A DNA stretch of 5,040 nucleotides from Tessaracoccus flavescens (GTDB lineage Bacteria > Actinomycetota > Actinomycetes > Propionibacteriales > Propionibacteriaceae), in contig DYZF01000281.1 of assembly GCA_020741375.1 (NCBI GenBank), forward strand, positions 1-5,040, given 5' to 3'. The notes under the pieces were generated by a model that was not told where the DNA came from, made no database searches, and saw only the letters and a program-made list of their open reading frames with translations. The position numbers and the translations under genes were made by a program. Below, in pieces: positions 1 through 4,989 of this stretch. Within the stretch, counting starts at the first letter, position 1; the number at the start of each line of letters is the position of its first letter.

Positions 1-47
1 GCTCCGGCTCCTAGGCCCGGTAGGGGCTGGCGAGCCGTGGTTGGGGC

Positions 48-159
48 GAGTGTGACGGGGATGGGGCATTCTCGCCCAGGGGCTGTTCACGCGCCTATGG
101 CGCGCGTGAACGCCCCGACACGCCCGACCCGCCACGAAGGCCCCATCCCCGCCCCACTC
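48..159. repeat. Imperfect long inverted repeat enclosing the hairpin
   Basis: The 24 nt at 48-71 match the reverse complement of 136-159 at 21 positions. They share the core GGGGATGGGGC (57-67), flanked by GAGTG and TTC. The arms enclose the perfect hairpin at 79-116, so the whole block can fold as one nested cruciform or RNA structure. This could be a palindromic non-autonomous element or an intergenic repeat family. No target-site duplication is apparent by eye. Confidence 0.6.
79..116. repeat. Strong stem-loop, 15 bp with one bulge
   Basis: GGGGC (79-83) and GTTCACGCGC (85-94) pair perfectly with GCGCGTGAAC (102-111) and GCCCC (112-116). Only T84 is bulged, and the loop is 7 nt (95-101). 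The inner part can also fold in a shifted register, GCGCC-TAT-GGCGC (91-103). No T-run follows on either strand, so a factor-independent terminator is doubtful. It may be a REP-type element, a bidirectional transcription end without a U-tract, or the centre of a small mobile or repeat unit. It sits exactly between the arms of the larger inverted repeat at 48-71 and 136-159. Confidence 0.75.
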
Positions 160-234
160 TCGACCTGCGGGTGACAGTCTCCGCGCCGACAGCTGCGACG
201 CCCGACCCACCGCGAAGGCCCCCCGCCCCACTCT
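121..234. repeat. Pair of direct repeats, 40 and 36 nt
   Basis: The copies lie at 121-160 and 199-234. Both begin CGCCCGACCC, continue through CGAAGGCCCC and end CCGCCCCACTCT. The second copy lacks 4 nt (the ATCC part) and has a few substitutions. The 38-nt separator (161-198) is unrelated. The inverted partner of the first copy is at 48-71, so the unit occurs three times in about 190 nt in two orientations. Confidence 0.65.
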
Positions 235-340
235 TGTCGTACCGGTCGCGACTCAGCCGCGATGGCCCATCCCCTCGGAGTCCCATTTCATTCCCGATTT
301 CGCCTTCGGCGAAGATCAGTCCTCAGCGGTGAGAAGTGTG

Positions 341-368
341 CCGACCTGCTCCCGGACGCCACTAATTT
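341..368 (+). promoter_or_regulatory. Candidate promoter for the leader and operon
   Basis: TAATTT (363-368) fits the actinobacterial -10 pattern TANNNT and is the most AT-rich hexamer just upstream of the leader. CCGACC (341-346) matches the -35 consensus TTGACA at only three of six positions, with a 16-nt spacer. Transcription would start near 375, giving a 5' leader of roughly 35 nt before the first ORF. A 12-nt near-palindrome, CTCAGCGGTGAG (322-333), lies just upstream and could be a regulator site, but that is speculative. The -35 match is weak. Confidence 0.35.
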
Positions 369-410
369 GGGCGACACCGAACCCCACCCGAGGTTAAGGA
401 AGCAACACCG

Positions 411-521
411 ATGATGCAGGTCTCCACGTCGCTCAACGCGACGCTTGCCCTGTCCGCCGCCGGTCGCGTCACCACGACGCCCGCCCGCGTGGCGTGTTGC
501 ATGATGCGCGGGCAGCACTGA
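411..521 (+). CDS. Cys-Cys-Met-Met leader peptide (36 aa)
   Basis: This 36-residue ORF begins MMQVSTSLNATL and ends RVACCMMRGQH. AAGGA (396-400), within AAGGAAG, lies about 10 nt upstream and is a good ribosome site. The peptide has no domain and is too short to be an enzyme. Its notable part is the run TGT-TGC-ATG-ATG (495-506), two cysteine then two methionine codons four residues from the stop. Actinobacterial leader peptides with consecutive Cys codons are known upstream of sulfur-assimilation operons, where ribosome stalling at low cysteine raises downstream expression. The placement here, 148 nt ahead of an operon with a sulfonate-type importer, fits that role. The adjacent Met codons could add a response to methionine, which is inference. 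A start at the second ATG (414) is equally possible. The peptide probably has no function beyond being translated. Confidence 0.82.
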   Translation: MMQVSTSLNATLALSAAGRVTTTPARVACCMMRGQH

Positions 522-631
522 CCTAAGCCCCCTCGCGCGCCGAGCATTCCCGCTCGGCACACCCGTACCCGACCGCCGTCAGGCTCTGCCATGGCGTGCC
601 GCCGCGTACCCACACCCCGACGGCGCCGAGC
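506..631 (+). promoter_or_regulatory. Putative cysteine-responsive attenuator with alternative folds
   Basis: Several helices are possible between the leader ORF and the first structural gene. GCGCG (506-510), beginning inside the last Met codon, can pair with CGCGC (534-538). A perfect 7-bp hairpin follows: GCCGAGC (539-545), loop ATTCCC, GCTCGGC (552-558). The 3' arm of that hairpin has a second perfect partner, GCCGAGC, at 625-631. The alternative would stack over CGCCGTC (574-580) pairing with GACGGCG (619-625, sharing G625). The two states exclude each other. No U-tract follows any helix, so control by Rho or by translation-coupled folding is likelier than intrinsic termination. The stretch 559-620 is C-rich and G-poor in places, as Rho loading sites are. 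The mechanism is inferred from base pairing read by eye. Confidence 0.5.
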
Positions 632-669
632 CGCGACGTCGTCACTCACCCCCCATGAAGGAATCCATC

Positions 670-1182
670 ATGTCGCTGTACCTTGTCGAGCTCACGTCCG
701 CCGCTGACGCCCAGTCCGTCCTCGCCGACCTCGCCGCCACCACCGCCACCGAGTTCATCGAGGCCCAAGTCACCGCCGACGCGTCGCGCATCTTCGCCAT
801 CCTCGAGGCCGACTCCGCTGACGACGTTGCTGCCGCCGTCGCGCCGCTCGAGGCCGAGGCCTCCGACCCGGCCGAGGTGCGCCTCGTCGGCGCCGACCTT
901 TCCGACATCAAGGCTGCCCGCCCCGAGGCCGGCTACCTCGTCGAATGGGACATCCCGTCGCACATCGACATGGACACCTACCTCGCCCGCAAGGCGGAGA
1001 AAACTCCGCTCTACGATCAGGTCCCCGAGGTCAGCTTCCTCCGCACCTACGTGCGGGAGGACATGGCCAAGTGCCTGTGCTTCTACGACGCGCCCGATGC
1101 TGACGCCGTCGTGCACGCCCGCGACGTCGTCTCCACCCCTGTTGACCGCCTACACGCTCTCGGCCGAATCGAGCTGCCATGA
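670..1182 (+). CDS. Two-domain DUF4242 (SCO4226-like) protein
   Basis: The product is a 170-residue soluble protein with no signal peptide or membrane segment. The C-terminal half (about 88-166) resembles DUF4242, a ferredoxin-like α/β family that includes the Streptomyces nickel-responsive protein SCO4226. The resemblance lies in the run VSFLRTYVRED (121-131), the CLCFYDAPDADAV strand-helix segment (135-147) and the ending STPVDRLHAL. The N-terminal half repeats the pattern more loosely: YLVEL at 4-8 answers YLVEW at 89-93. It is probably an internal duplication. Possible metal or thiol ligands are Cys135, Cys137 and His149. The start is taken at 670 because AAGGAA (658-663) sits 6-7 nt upstream; an in-frame ATG at 655 has the same purines after it and is unsuitable. 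The gene is first in the operon and overlaps the next by ATGA. Its role is unknown; binding of a metal or small ligand, or a partner role to the flavoprotein, is conjecture. Confidence 0.85.
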   Translation: MSLYLVELTSAADAQSVLADLAATTATEFIEAQVTADASRIFAILEADSADDVAAAVAPLEAEASDPAEVRLVGADLSDIKAARPEAGYLVEWDIPSHIDMDTYLARKAEKTPLYDQVPEVSFLRTYVREDMAKCLCFYDAPDADAVVHARDVVSTPVDRLHALGRIELP

Positions 1183-2192
1183 CCATCGCCACGCAAGCAC
1201 CTGCTTCTCTGCTCGAGGACGTGGCCGCTGCGGCCGCTGACATCGACGCCGCCGTCACCACACCCAGGGGTCACCTCTCCGAACTAGGAGCCGCTGGCCT
1301 GCTCGACCTCGACGTCCGCGGCTCCGCGCAACTCATCTCCGAGCTGGCCGGCGAGTGCATGTCCACAGGGTTCAGCGTGTGGGCGCACCGCATGGTCATC
1401 GAATATCTCCGTCGCGGCCTGCCCACCGAACCGAACCTGTCCCTCCTGACCGATGTCGCAGCCGGCCGTCGCGTCGGCAGCACCGCCATGGCGAGCGGCC
1501 TCAAGTGGCTCGCCGGCATCGGAGACGTCACCGTCACCGCGACCCCGATCGGCGGAGGCTGGGCGCTGAGCGGTTTCATCCCGTGGGCCTCGAACCTGTT
1601 CGACGACGGCGTCGTGGTGCTTCCTGCCACAACACCCGACGGCACCATCGTCGTCTGGGTGCCGGCCGCCGATCTCTCGGTCAAGCCGGTGACCGGCCTC
1701 CTTGCCCTCAACGCGACCGCGTCGGGAAACATTCGGCTCGACGACGTCATCGCGCCGGACGAGCAACTCATCAGCGACGATCTCCGCAGCTTCGCGTCCG
1801 GCTTCCGCCCAACGTTCCTGGTGCTCCAGACCGCGTTCTGCGTCGGCCTCATCCGCCGAGCGCTCGCGGAAGCCGAGGCCTCACTCGATCGAGCGGAGAA
1901 CTCCGCGTTCGCGCCGACTGTGGCCGAACTGATCGAGCTGGCCGACGAGCACCGTGCGCGCTGGGAGGTGTTGGTGGCGGATCTGGATCGCCCGGTTGCC
2001 GAATACCTGCGGCTGCGTCTCGACGCGGCGCTGCTCGCCGCGGAGGCCACCAGATTGGAATCGACGCTCGCCGGTGGTCGCGGCTACCAAGCGACATCAG
2101 GCTCGTCACGCCGCTTCCGTGAGGCCGCCTTCTTGCCAGTTCAGTCTCCGTCGGAAGGGCAGTTGCGGTGGGAACTCTCCTCGCTCGCCTGA
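1179..2192 (+). CDS. Acyl-CoA dehydrogenase-family flavoprotein, possible organosulfur monooxygenase
   Basis: The 337-residue product has the acyl-CoA dehydrogenase fold. A helical N-terminal domain (about 1-97) is followed by a β domain (about 98-195) containing GSTAMASGLKW and GGGWALSGFIPWASNL, the counterpart of the family's 'G..L.G.K.WITN' flavin-contacting segment, and ending NIRLDDVIAP. A C-terminal helical domain (about 205-337) carries AGGRGYQATSGSSRRFREAAF, split around residues 298-318, matching the family's 'G..GY......R..RD' region. At 337 residues it is shorter than the usual 380-400. The catalytic Glu of true dehydrogenases is not clearly conserved; Glu326-Gly327 near the end may or may not align with it. 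The superfamily includes FMNH2-dependent oxygenases such as DszC and SfnB, and the importer and Cys leader favour such a role over fatty-acid oxidation. No CoA pathway gene is nearby. Translation is probably coupled to the preceding gene through the ATGA overlap, as only a weak ribosome site is visible. The fold is firm and the substrate unknown. Confidence 0.85.
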   Translation: MTIATQAPASLLEDVAAAAADIDAAVTTPRGHLSELGAAGLLDLDVRGSAQLISELAGECMSTGFSVWAHRMVIEYLRRGLPTEPNLSLLTDVAAGRRVGSTAMASGLKWLAGIGDVTVTATPIGGGWALSGFIPWASNLFDDGVVVLPATTPDGTIVVWVPAADLSVKPVTGLLALNATASGNIRLDDVIAPDEQLISDDLRSFASGFRPTFLVLQTAFCVGLIRRALAEAEASLDRAENSAFAPTVAELIELADEHRARWEVLVADLDRPVAEYLRLRLDAALLAAEATRLESTLAGGRGYQATSGSSRRFREAAFLPVQSPSEGQLRWELSSLA

Positions 2193-2932
2193 ACGGCGTC
2201 TCCGTGTGGCACGGCCACCGGCGAGCCCTCGACGAGGTTGACCTCGACCTGGTCAAGGGCCGTCAGGTGGCGGTGCTGGGCCCAAGCGGCGCCGGCAAGT
2301 CGACCTTGCTCAGGGTGCTCGCGGGAGAGCAGCACCCCAACCCGGGCCGTGTTGAGTTTCCCCTCGGGCGCCCCCGCCAAGGGGTGGTTCGTCAAGAGCC
2401 GCTCCTCTTCGAGTGGCTCACCGTGGCCGAGAATGTCGCCCTCGGTCAGACGCTGAAGGCCAACACTGCAGATCCCGCCCTGGTGGCGGAACTGCTCGGG
2501 CTCCTCGGCATCGCCGACGTGGCATCGTCGTACCCGGACCAGATCTCCGGCGGTCAGGCTCAGCGCGCCGCGTTCGCGCGGGCCCTCGCCATCGCTCCGG
2601 ACCTGCTGCTCCTCGACGAGCCCTTCAGCGCTCTGGATCCGGCTACCCGAACAGACCTGCAGTCGTGGCTGGTCGACACCCTTGCCGAGCGCGGACTCAC
2701 CTCGGTGCTCGTCACACATGACATCGACGAGGCACTCGTGCTGGCAGACGACATCGTGTTGGTGAACCGAGGCCGAGTGGCCCACCGCTGGGACAACACC
2801 GCTCGGGCCGACGGCGAAGCCTCCGCCCATCGACACCCGCTGCGGGCAGCGATTCGTGCCGCCTACGGCTCCGACTGGGAACCCGGCGACGAAGAGTTCT
2901 CCGGACCCGCACCGAGGAGCGTCCATGCCTGA
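2168..2932 (+). CDS. ABC importer ATP-binding protein (SsuB/TauB/NrtD type)
   Basis: This 254-residue cytoplasmic ATPase powers the importer. All motifs are present: Walker A GPSGAGKST (38-46), Q-loop Gln76, signature SGGQAQR (127-133), Walker B LLLLDEP (146-152), D-loop SALD (154-157) and switch His184 in VTHDIDEA. The DEPFSALD and THDIDEA wording is typical of the nitrate/sulfonate/taurine importer family. The C-terminal tail after about residue 200 is short, with no regulatory domain. The start is GTG (2168), with GGAAGGG (2153-2159) 8 nt upstream. The gene overlaps the end of the flavoprotein gene by 25 nt and the next gene by 8 nt. The substrate cannot be read from this subunit. It would act as a dimer with the permease at 4067. 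Confidence 0.93.
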   Translation: MGTLLARLNGVSVWHGHRRALDEVDLDLVKGRQVAVLGPSGAGKSTLLRVLAGEQHPNPGRVEFPLGRPRQGVVRQEPLLFEWLTVAENVALGQTLKANTADPALVAELLGLLGIADVASSYPDQISGGQAQRAAFARALAIAPDLLLLDEPFSALDPATRTDLQSWLVDTLAERGLTSVLVTHDIDEALVLADDIVLVNRGRVAHRWDNTARADGEASAHRHPLRAAIRAAYGSDWEPGDEEFSGPAPRSVHA

Positions 2933-4070
2933 CCGCCGAACAGTCCTCCAGAACGCGGCCCGCATCGGCGCTGCCGCGACCGTCGGCGGGCTCGCCGTCC
3001 GGGGCGGCTGGCAAGCTCTCGCCCCCCAGCGGGCCGACGCGGCCACGGGCCTCGGCCGTGAACTGCGCATCGGCTACCTCCCGATCACCGACGCCACAGC
3101 TCTACTGATCGCGCACGACCGTGGGTTGTGGGCCGAGGCCGGGGCGCCGACGGCAAAACCCGTGCTGTTCCGCTCATGGGATGCGCTCGCCCAAGCGTTC
3201 GTCGTCGGGGAGGTCGACGTCGTCCACCTCCTCATGCCGTTGGCACTTCAGCTTCGGCTGGCCACCAATGCACCGGTCAAGGTGCTCGGCTGGGGCCATA
3301 CCAATGGGTCGGCTCTCGTTCTGGGGGCCGGGATCAGCGACGTCGGGCAACTCGGCGGCGCCACCGTGGCCGTCCCGTACTGGTGGAGCGTCCACTCCAT
3401 CCTCACCCAGCGGATCCTCACTTCCGCTGGTCTCACGCCGGTGATCGGCCGCGGCGCGCGCCCGGGCGAGGTGCAGCTCGTCGTCATGGCGCCAGCCGAG
3501 ATGGTGTCTGCGCTAGCCGCGGGTCAGATCGCCGGGTTCGCCGTGGCCGATCCGTTCAACGCCGCCGCCGAAATCCAAGGCATCGGCACCGTGCATCGCC
3601 TCCTCGGCGACGTGTGGCGCGATCACGCGTGCTGCGCCGTCGCCGTCCGTCAGGACTTGATAGATCGGCACCCCGACACGGTGCACGCACTGGCCGACGG
3701 GTTGGTCGCGGCCCAGGGCTGGGCAGACGCCCACCGGGACGAGGCGGCGGAGCGGCTCAGCGCCGGCGGCTACCTGCCGCAGCCAGTCGGGGCCATCAAG
3801 CGCGCGCTGTCGCGCCCGGCCGATCCTGGCGCCGAACACGCCCACTGGCACGGTGAGAAGCTCGGCTTCAGTGCCTTCCCGCATGCGGCCTACACGGAGC
3901 GTCTGGTTCAGCTCATGGCGGGCACAGTCGTCGACGGCGACCGTTCGTTCCTCGATCAGGTGGATCCGGCCGAGGCACACCGTCAACTTGTCGAGGACAC
4001 ATTCATCACGGCCGCGCTCCAGCGTGCCGGCGTTGCGGTTCCAGACCGCGTCGAGGAGGTCTCAGAATGA
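2925..4070 (+). CDS. Tat-exported ABC substrate-binding protein (NMT1/SsuA/NrtA-like)
   Basis: The 381-residue protein should capture the importer's substrate outside the membrane. The N-terminus MPDRRTVLQN has a twin-arginine motif. A hydrophobic stretch follows (about 11-25), then a likely cleavage region near ADAAT (37-41), so Tat export of a folded protein is predicted. The mature part begins ELRIGYLPITDATALLIAHD (46-65). This and the segments RSWDALAQAFVVGEVDVVHL (83-102) and VAVPYWWSVHSI (148-159) are the pattern of NrtA/SsuA-type periplasmic-binding proteins for nitrate, taurine, sulfonates or thiamine precursors. The start at 2925 is chosen because GAGGAG (2914-2919) lies 5 nt upstream and the Tat motif follows directly. 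A GTG at 2856 in the same frame would add 23 non-signal residues. Adjacent Cys236-Cys237 (HACCAV) is unusual and could form a vicinal disulfide. There is no lipobox, so retention at the membrane would need the permease or the cell wall. The ligand is unknown; an organosulfur compound is inferred from context. Confidence 0.9.
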   Translation: MPDRRTVLQNAARIGAAATVGGLAVRGGWQALAPQRADAATGLGRELRIGYLPITDATALLIAHDRGLWAEAGAPTAKPVLFRSWDALAQAFVVGEVDVVHLLMPLALQLRLATNAPVKVLGWGHTNGSALVLGAGISDVGQLGGATVAVPYWWSVHSILTQRILTSAGLTPVIGRGARPGEVQLVVMAPAEMVSALAAGQIAGFAVADPFNAAAEIQGIGTVHRLLGDVWRDHACCAVAVRQDLIDRHPDTVHALADGLVAAQGWADAHRDEAAERLSAGGYLPQPVGAIKRALSRPADPGAEHAHWHGEKLGFSAFPHAAYTERLVQLMAGTVVDGDRSFLDQVDPAEAHRQLVEDTFITAALQRAGVAVPDRVEEVSE

Positions 4071-4882
4071 GCGCCATTGCTGTCGGCCGCACTGCGGCCA
4101 GTCCACGGGGTGCTGGTATCGACGCGCGGCCACTCCTTCCGGCGGTCGGGGTCGTCGGAGCGGTGTTCCTATGGTGGCTCGCGACCGACGTGGTCTTCGC
4201 GGCCCGGCCGCTCGTGGCACAGTTCTCCCCGCTTCTGGCTGTGCGGGGCTTTGCCGAGCTGGCCGCTGGGGGAGCGCTGCTCGACGCCGCGTCGGCCAGC
4301 GTGTTCAGGCTGCTGGCCGGGGTCGCGGTGGCGGCGGTGATCGGTGTCGCGATTGGGTTGGCCGTCGGCTCGAGTCGGAGCTTGGATCGGGCTGTGTCCC
4401 CGGTGCTGCTGTTCTTGCGCATGGTCTCGCCGCTCTCGTGGGCTCCCGTCGTGGTCATCGCGTTCGGCGTCGGCGATCCGCCGGTGGTTGCGCTGGTGGC
4501 AGCAGCTGCCGTGTGGCCCATCGCCACGGGTGTCGCGGAGGGGGTTGGGCGGGTCAACCCGGGGCATCTTGGGGTGGCGCGCTCTCTCGGCGCCTCCCGC
4601 GCCGAGGTGCTTTCCCGCGTGACGTGGCCGTCGGTGCGCCCTGCCCTCCTGCTCGGGGTGAGGCAGGCTCTCGGGATCGCGTGGGTGGTCCTCGTGCCGG
4701 CAGAGATGCTCGGCGTCGCGAGCGGGCTGGGCTACGAGATCCTCAATGCAAAGGATCAGTTGGCCTTCCATCACGTGACGGCGCTGATCCTTGTGATCGG
4801 CACGCTCGGCTTCTTGATCGACGTCGTCGCTCGTTGGCTGCTCGCCACACGTCGCGACAGGTCGCGCGGAGCCGCACAGTAG
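4067..4882 (+). CDS. ABC importer permease (SsuC/TauC type)
   Basis: This 271-residue membrane protein forms the transport channel, probably as a homodimer since only one permease gene is present. Six hydrophobic segments are visible at about 23-44, 80-101, 110-134, 138-157, 195-215 and 238-260. The cytoplasmic EAA loop, which docks on the ATPase, is GHLGVARSLGASRAEVLSRVTWPSVRP (166-192, split here as GHLGVARSLGAS and RAEVLSRVTWPSVRP), close to the binding-protein-dependent transport family consensus. GAGGAGG (4053-4059) sits 7 nt before the start, and the start codon overlaps the preceding stop as ATGA. It is the last gene of the operon; no further gene follows before the window ends. Length and topology are normal for the family. 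Confidence 0.93.
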   Translation: MSAIAVGRTAASPRGAGIDARPLLPAVGVVGAVFLWWLATDVVFAARPLVAQFSPLLAVRGFAELAAGGALLDAASASVFRLLAGVAVAAVIGVAIGLAVGSSRSLDRAVSPVLLFLRMVSPLSWAPVVVIAFGVGDPPVVALVAAAAVWPIATGVAEGVGRVNPGHLGVARSLGASRAEVLSRVTWPSVRPALLLGVRQALGIAWVVLVPAEMLGVASGLGYEILNAKDQLAFHHVTALILVIGTLGFLIDVVARWLLATRRDRSRGAAQ

Positions 4883-4937: not shown

Positions 4938-4989
4938 CCCCTTTCGCTGATTGAGTAGTCCGCCCCCTTCCGCTGATTGAGTAGTCCGC
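4938..4989. repeat. 26-bp tandem duplication of an intergenic repeat
   Basis: Two exactly adjacent 26-nt units (4938-4963 and 4964-4989) each read CCCCTTY followed by CGCTGATTGAGTAGTCCGC. They differ only at T4944 versus C4970. The second unit continues into a short stem GCGC-GTA-GCGC (4990-5000) and GGGCGTATCGACTCG (to about 5016). That full-length form resembles a REP-type element found between genes in Gordonia and related actinobacteria. The first unit is thus a partial copy, probably from replication slippage. Confidence 0.7.

Follow-up and report, generated by a model that had tools for sequence, protein, structure and literature searches.

A conserved cysteine-ended leader ORF before a putative sulfonate-type uptake operon in Tessaracoccus flavescens: a candidate new family of attenuator peptides

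The locus raises the question whether the short ORF in front of its operon encodes a leader peptide, and which amino acid such a leader would sense. The stretch of DNA analysed (5,040 nt, hereafter the window) is an entire contig, C281, of the T. flavescens draft genome G000 (2.26 Mb, 296 contigs). Reading frame and translation bear out the ORF at 411-521, with a CCMM run at 495-506 followed by four residues and the stop. A second in-frame ATG stands at 414, and the start is either 411 or 414. The preliminary description regarded the ORF as easily missed, which is true in part: protein databases contain 25 relatives, the majority of them unnamed. The parts of the ORF are as follows.

411..521, + strand: leader ORF of 36 codons, ATG at 411 and TGA at 519-521; peptide MMQVSTSLNATLALSAAGRVTTTPARVACCMMRGQH
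411..464, + strand: conserved head MMQVSTSLNATLALSAAG, mean pairwise identity 0.76 among 28 peptides
465..518, + strand: tail of variable sequence with many Cys and Met residues
495..500, + strand: two Cys codons, the proposed stall site; Cys lies within the last seven residues in 28/28 members
501..506, + strand: two Met codons, whose place is not conserved (CCMM in 2/28; P0021 has CCIM at that spot)

An Rfam scan of the window gave nothing at the gathering threshold, and the single match at E<=1 (sX7, E 0.22, minus strand) was taken as chance. One DNA pattern was searched in a plasmid collection and in viral contigs, with no match. Near the contig end CGCTGATTGAGTAGTCCGC occurs twice, starting at 4945 and 4971 (window 4945-4989), possibly as an interspersed repeat.

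Five genes, all in one direction, follow 3' of the leader.

658-663, + strand: Shine-Dalgarno AAGGAA of the first operon gene
670..1182, + strand: first operon gene, DUF3303 plus SCO4226-like protein (Pfam PF14026, E 6.9e-23; PF11746, E 3.3e-5)
1179..2192, + strand: gene 2, SfnB/acyl-CoA dehydrogenase-like oxidoreductase (TIGR04022 weak, E 1.3e-4, far under its cut-off; no Pfam match)
2168..2932, + strand: ABC transporter ATPase, SsuB-like (PF00005, E 2.1e-27)
2925..4070, + strand: substrate-binding protein, SsuA-like (PF13379, E 1.5e-42; TIGR01728, E 1.5e-28, under its cut-off)
4067..4882, + strand: ABC permease, SsuC-like (PF00528, E 2.4e-20; top NCBIfam matches SaoP, NtrB and SsuC, all under cut-off)

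The order is thus SCO4226-like, SfnB-like and SsuB/A/C-like, and the best subfamily matches of the ABC parts are of the sulfonate, taurine and nitrate kinds. Because of the SfnB-like and SsuA/B/C-like matches, all of them below the family cut-offs, we infer that the operon is of a sulfonate-uptake type and would supply sulfur from sulfonates. No regulator gene adjoining the operon was common to L013 and L016, the two loci whose ORFs were read by eye; the former has LexA-like and NrdR-like ORFs, and the latter has a permease-like gene on the opposite strand.

The first operon gene was used as a query, which led to 24 distinct loci including the window, and about 420-450 nt of upstream DNA was read in each. 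The relatives searched included Propionibacteriaceae MAGs and an uncultured Arachnia. The new leader was found at six of the 24 loci (the window, L007, L012, L013, L014 and L016), directly 5' of the putative sulfur-supply operon. The first gene is the same each time and begins 128-165 nt after the leader stop, with gene 2 next at all six. The claim of a conserved Cys-ended ORF 5' of a sulfur-type operon is supported, at the site where some other actinobacteria have known Cys leaders. A leader of the known type described by the model NF042934 (cis_reg_atten, curated cut-off 27 bits, LVxRRHVDLxRVASAxC) was found at seven loci (L015, L017, L018, L019, L021, L022 and L078), and in Pseudonocardiaceae (Amycolatopsis, Pseudonocardia, Saccharopolyspora) it is this type that precedes the orthologous operon. 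The cut-off was passed by five of the six scanned leaders (L015, L017, L018, L019 and L022), while that of L078 stayed under it with 21.1 bits; L021 was assigned by eye. The leaders of L018, L019 and L021 have GTG starts and were read from the DNA. The tail of the L015 leader, 239 nt before the first gene, reads AACCRRMCW and also holds both Cys and Met. L078 lies on the reverse strand in a small genome belonging to the same class, and its leader, MVLIKRRHIDLMRSTTSSCCC, ends in three Cys codons before the orthologous first gene.

Neither leader type was found within about 450 nt upstream at 11 of the 24 loci (L008-L011, L020, L076, L077 and L079-L082); at L020, short Cys-holding upstream frames of other kinds were left out of the counts. 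Gene 2 follows the first gene at 21 of the 24, and is absent from L008, L009 and L011. Since these three loci without gene 2 all have neither leader type, the leaders go with the operon. They accompany it, yet not at every locus with gene 2: eight of the 21 are without either leader within about 450 nt. L010 of genome G030, whose first gene is nearest to that of the window (75-77% identical), is among the loci without a leader.

Twenty-eight distinct predicted peptides of the new type were assembled from the DNA loci and from profile searches of protein databases, which gave 22 proteins and then 25. DNA context covers six of the members, and the other 22 are protein records. P0018 was dropped, being P0016 with an upstream extension, and P0001 and P0002, which are the L016 and L013 peptides, were each counted once. 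P0010 equals the window peptide except for one residue and clusters with the window's own protein, but was counted as distinct. Database peptides were trimmed to the MMQ/MKV start before counting. The leader profile was run over 198 genomes of the family and 391 of the order, and strong matches came from the same five genomes both times, one per genome; in many genomes a part of the first-look candidates was scored (39 in the family search, 20 in the order search). Weaker matches (E 0.001-0.1), many of them within frames of >100 codons, were excluded from the counts. In all five leader-bearing whole genomes the leader precedes the operon.

The preliminary description expected conservation of the CCMM run and the stop position against a drifting remainder, and the opposite was found. 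Conservation resides in the head, with the consensus MMQVSxSLNATLALSAAS: over the 28 peptides its mean pairwise identity is 0.76, and that of the tail is 0.27 right-aligned and 0.35 left-aligned. CCMM occurs in two of them, the window and its near-identical allele P0010, and P0021, the closest relative besides that allele, ends ACCIMCR. What the tails keep is Cys. All 59 Cys residues of the family are located in tails (59 of 440 tail residues, none of 497 head residues), and each of the 28 peptides has at least one within its last seven residues. The distance of the last Cys from the stop varies between 1 and 7 codons, and most often (15 peptides) it is the third residue from the end; CC is found in 16. 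This retention is not a scoring artefact, because an HMM of the six loci with Cys masked still gave 28/28 at E 1 or better, a check of the scoring step that comes after the database word filter. CCMM in one sequence could be chance; the family shows that its Cys part is not. The conserved signal is Cys near the stop, not the combined CCMM run. In the six DNA loci the tail has pS 0.466 and pN 0.532, which shows no protein-type constraint. Of the 97 tail codons of these loci, 11 are for Cys and 13 for Met; after dinucleotide shuffling the tails held on average 7.15 Cys (P 0.07 for the observed 11). Cys in the last eight codons at all six loci had P 0.018 in the shuffles, and P 0.074 with four clade representatives.

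The best reading of these data is that Cys-responsive leader peptides of a new sequence family precede sulfonate-type uptake genes. We consider it probable that the leader is a Cys-responsive attenuator of the sulfonate-type operon. The preliminary description went further in suggesting that the ORF could report both sulfur amino acids; in such a sensor a stall at either codon set would signal their total supply. Met is indeed enriched: it makes up 46 of the 440 tail residues, 23 of the 28 tails have at least one, and 15 have MM. The 13 Met of the six-locus tails compare with a shuffle mean of 3.63 and were reached in none of 3000 shuffles, although this count overstates independence because the MM of L007, L012 and L014 is probably inherited. 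There is a precedent in metL of Streptomyces lividans, which holds both residues according to the accessible part of its description (PMC8079986). Five tails are nevertheless free of Met whereas none is free of Cys, CCMM is confined to 2/28, and MM precedes Cys in 13 of the 15 MM tails, following it solely in the window and P0010. A combined Cys and Met sensor appears rather unlikely.

For a leader that would act on transcription, the signals around the ORF are also of concern.

300..312: dyad TCGC-N5-GCGA (T-N11-A form), exact, at -111 from the leader ATG; a possible operator
363..368, + strand: hexamer TAATTT, the likely -10 element of the leader promoter, TARYTT family motif
396..402, + strand: Shine-Dalgarno AAGGAAG of the leader; a GAGGA/AAGGA-type site precedes the ATG at 6/6 loci
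429..441: dyad TCGC-N5-GCGA within the head, which also forms the inner hairpin when the head RNA is folded; exact at 5/6 loci, one mismatch at L014
522..669, + strand: C-rich untranslated gap (47% C, 24% G), a candidate Rho loading region

The TARYTT motif lies 48-67 nt 5' of the leader ATG at all six loci, with 0.0027 expected per 40 nt for a motif that was picked after looking; a sigma-70 consensus scan of window 1-900 gave no hit. The mycobacterial Cys-rich leaders are reportedly leaderless, going by the title of the 2020 study describing them. Unlike such leaderless uORFs, the new leader is preceded by a -10-like hexamer and a Shine-Dalgarno. Between leader and gene 1 the six loci have 43-52% C and 21-28% G, and each gap ranks within the top 1.2-4.2% for C-over-G skew when compared with segments of equal length from its own locus; the first gene leans to C as well (skew 0.13-0.21). 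No terminator-like site with a U-run was found in window 1-900, the region scanned for intrinsic terminators. In predicted folds of the six loci, the gene-1 Shine-Dalgarno is unpaired with a probability of 0.34-0.73 in ribosome-free RNA, and a ribosome on the Cys codons or on the stop would barely shift this exposure (maximum 0.15, at L014). The predicted fold of the window places the gene-1 start in a separate small local hairpin. For masking of the gene-1 Shine-Dalgarno by the leader, the folds with and without ribosome showed no clear switch. A match by eye between CATGATG (500-506) and CATCATG at the gene-1 start was set aside, since the pairing is absent from the predicted fold.

From the family, the tail Cys, the context and the promoter-like and ribosome-binding signals, all read from the sequence, we infer a course of translation, stalling and signal that would run as follows. 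The transcript would start near 375 and the leader would be translated via its own Shine-Dalgarno. As long as charged Cys-tRNA abounds, the ribosome would complete the leader and depart, leaving the gap at 522-669 bare, and Rho would end transcription. When sulfur is scarce, the ribosome would stall at 495-500 and cover the beginning of the gap, and transcription would go on into the operon. The Met codons of the tail may add to the stall, with Cys as the constant signal. A Rho-type model is suggested by a gap that is C-rich and without a terminator, and by a predicted exposure of the gene-1 Shine-Dalgarno that the ribosome hardly changes. To the Rho step by itself, which is deduced from base composition, we give an even chance. 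Against it counts that mycobacterial Cys genes are described, in the accessible part of PMC13236596, as subject to translation attenuation and not Rho. For other actinobacterial Cys leaders Rho was considered, and the prediction was called rather weak, in the part available of PMC1262725. The experimental precedent is given by the Cys-responsive short ORFs of mycobacteria (Canestrari 2020, as cited in the accessible portions of PMC9031893 and PMC13236596).

No simple starvation model accounts for the conserved head, since a plain sensor does not need one. In the six DNA loci the head has pS 0.249 and pN 0.151 (first gene: pS 0.441, pN 0.207), and among L007, L012 and L013 head pS is 0-0.07 against 0.37-0.53 in gene 1. 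Being conserved even at silent sites, the head may have a role of its own. Its variable columns are spread over codon positions 1, 2 and 3 as 5, 6 and 7 of 16, a distribution lacking codon periodicity, and conservation is for this reason not clearly at the peptide level. A nascent-chain arrest peptide would account for a head much more conserved than the tail: acting inside the exit tunnel, the head would confer metabolite specificity on a stall at the Cys codons or at the stop. With the ribosome at the Cys codons, NATLALSAAS would be about 10-20 residues back and inside the tunnel. The absent codon periodicity and the silent sites kept in L007, L012 and L013 fit a nucleic-acid constraint as well or better, and we hold arrest by the nascent chain to be possible but doubtful. 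A dual-layer sensor is a speculative extension that we regard as unlikely: NATLALSAAS would arm the ribosome in the exit tunnel, shortage for the Cys/Met tail would fire it and open sulfonate scavenging, and the device, combining nascent-chain arrest with both sulfur amino acids in one leader, would have evolved separately from the HVDL-type Cys leaders that serve elsewhere in this genome.

Alternatively, the head could be a DNA operator or an RNA hairpin for a regulator, the ORF being incidental. The two dyad cores at 300-312 and 429-441 are 129 nt apart, one 5' of the putative promoter and one inside the head. The head dyad is exact at five of the six loci. The upstream dyad is exact at three (the window, L007 at -96 and L013 at -97) and has one mismatch at a fourth (L012 at -97); L014 and L016 lack it at the corresponding position. 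The T-N11-A form is the preference of LysR-type regulators, and the longer TTCGC-N5-GCGAA has five sites in the genome against two for the reversed control. All six heads fold into a similar two-part stem, but with z of -0.37 to -2.29 and no compensating double change in any of the 18 consensus pairs, hence no covariation. An operator or hairpin also leaves unexplained both the Cys of the terminal region in 28/28 peptides with otherwise drifting tails and the Shine-Dalgarno before the ATG at 6/6 loci. As the sole explanation it is quite improbable, though it could coexist with a leader. A small trans-acting protein would fit the peptide-level conservation of the head over 28 sequences, but is very improbable given a tail with pN 0.532 against pS 0.466, where protein-type constraint is missing, an ORF that precedes the operon at 6/6 DNA loci, and one strong match per genome in five genomes.

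The preferred reading, a Cys-responsive leader, was compared with the known leader types. No model of NCBIfam or Pfam matched the family above its cut-off. The NF042934 type is likewise a short ORF with terminal Cys; its head is not common to the new family, in which the R-x-HVDLxR...C core is absent by reading. NF042934 matched none of 23 members at E up to 10, where HMMER filters drop most weak matches, and the L007 and L014 leaders gave no match at E up to 1; the five passing leaders from orthologous loci served as positive controls. No relation was found by hhalign between the new family (24 rows) and known-type leaders (13). Within the genus, NF042934 has a match above cut-off in 7 of 39 genomes, and leaders of its type stand before a NirA/sulfite-reductase-like gene at L083, L084, L085 and L092 (four other genomes of the genus; one of the genes was scanned). 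An ORF of G151 with 21.7 bits to this model precedes a cysteine-synthase-like gene recognized by eye. G000 itself has an NF042934-like ORF, MPMLVGRLWVDLCRLQGASCR, with 25.2 bits against the cut-off of 27, located 48 nt before an SDF-family symporter gene (contig C34 of G000, L107 about 324-389). NF042934-like ORFs of G033, G013 and G030 (18.7-21.8 bits, under cut-off) precede what by eye is apparently the same symporter, which suggests that it takes up cystine or a sulfur-related compound. The new family would thus be a second leader type in genomes apparently having the first. NF042934-type leaders were also seen before a TauE-like membrane protein gene (L087) and an MFS transporter-like gene (L088), both recognized by eye.

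The Cys-rich leaders Ms4527A and Ms5788A (NF042936 and NF042933) gave no model match to the new family. These and the mycobacterial polycysteine uORFs also have Cys codons near the uORF stop, and were published, according to the accessible parts of the sources, as Cys-responsive attenuators. Leaders with Cys runs were predicted in Mycobacterium, Propionibacterium acnes and Bifidobacterium by Seliverstov 2005 (PMC1262725, of which a part was available). By their description, they resemble the new leader in placing Cys codons close to the stop, in lacking a terminator hairpin, and in having a polypyrimidine gap and Rho as the proposed factor, but they precede cys operons or cbs. The metL leader before metNIQ in S. 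lividans has the tail ARCMCRRMCAF, with Cys and Met as in the new family; its operon is another one, its head is unrelated by eye, and its authors read it as methionine-type in the available part of PMC8079986. DUF6380 was rejected as a relative: four of 23 members matched weakly (best E 0.063, 13.6 bits against a cut-off of 27), and its own members precede a FAD desaturase-like gene instead of a sulfur operon. At 13 loci (L108-L120) DUF6380 members with an ATLR...AASLT-like motif stand just before this gene, HpnE-like by eye, and may themselves be leader-type ORFs. Matches of IPTL-CTERM (three of 23 members, best E 0.019) and ErcA (three of 23, best E 0.048) were taken as chance. In the literature searched, with subscription papers mostly outside it, no mention of NATLALSAAS, NF042934, cis_reg_atten, Ms4527A or Ms5788A was found, and none of the titles listed was a publication on the new family.

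The Cys-leader models met in the scans (NF042934, NF042936 and NF042933) are of one related sequence type. The new family carries the same terminal-Cys signature behind an unrelated, strongly conserved head, precedes the orthologous operon, and occurs in a genome that also has an ORF resembling the known type. This offers a natural comparison of two leader designs, bearing directly on whether such leaders read codons alone or the nascent chain as well. If the switch is real, the sulfonate-type operon would join the genes that are likely attenuated by Cys.
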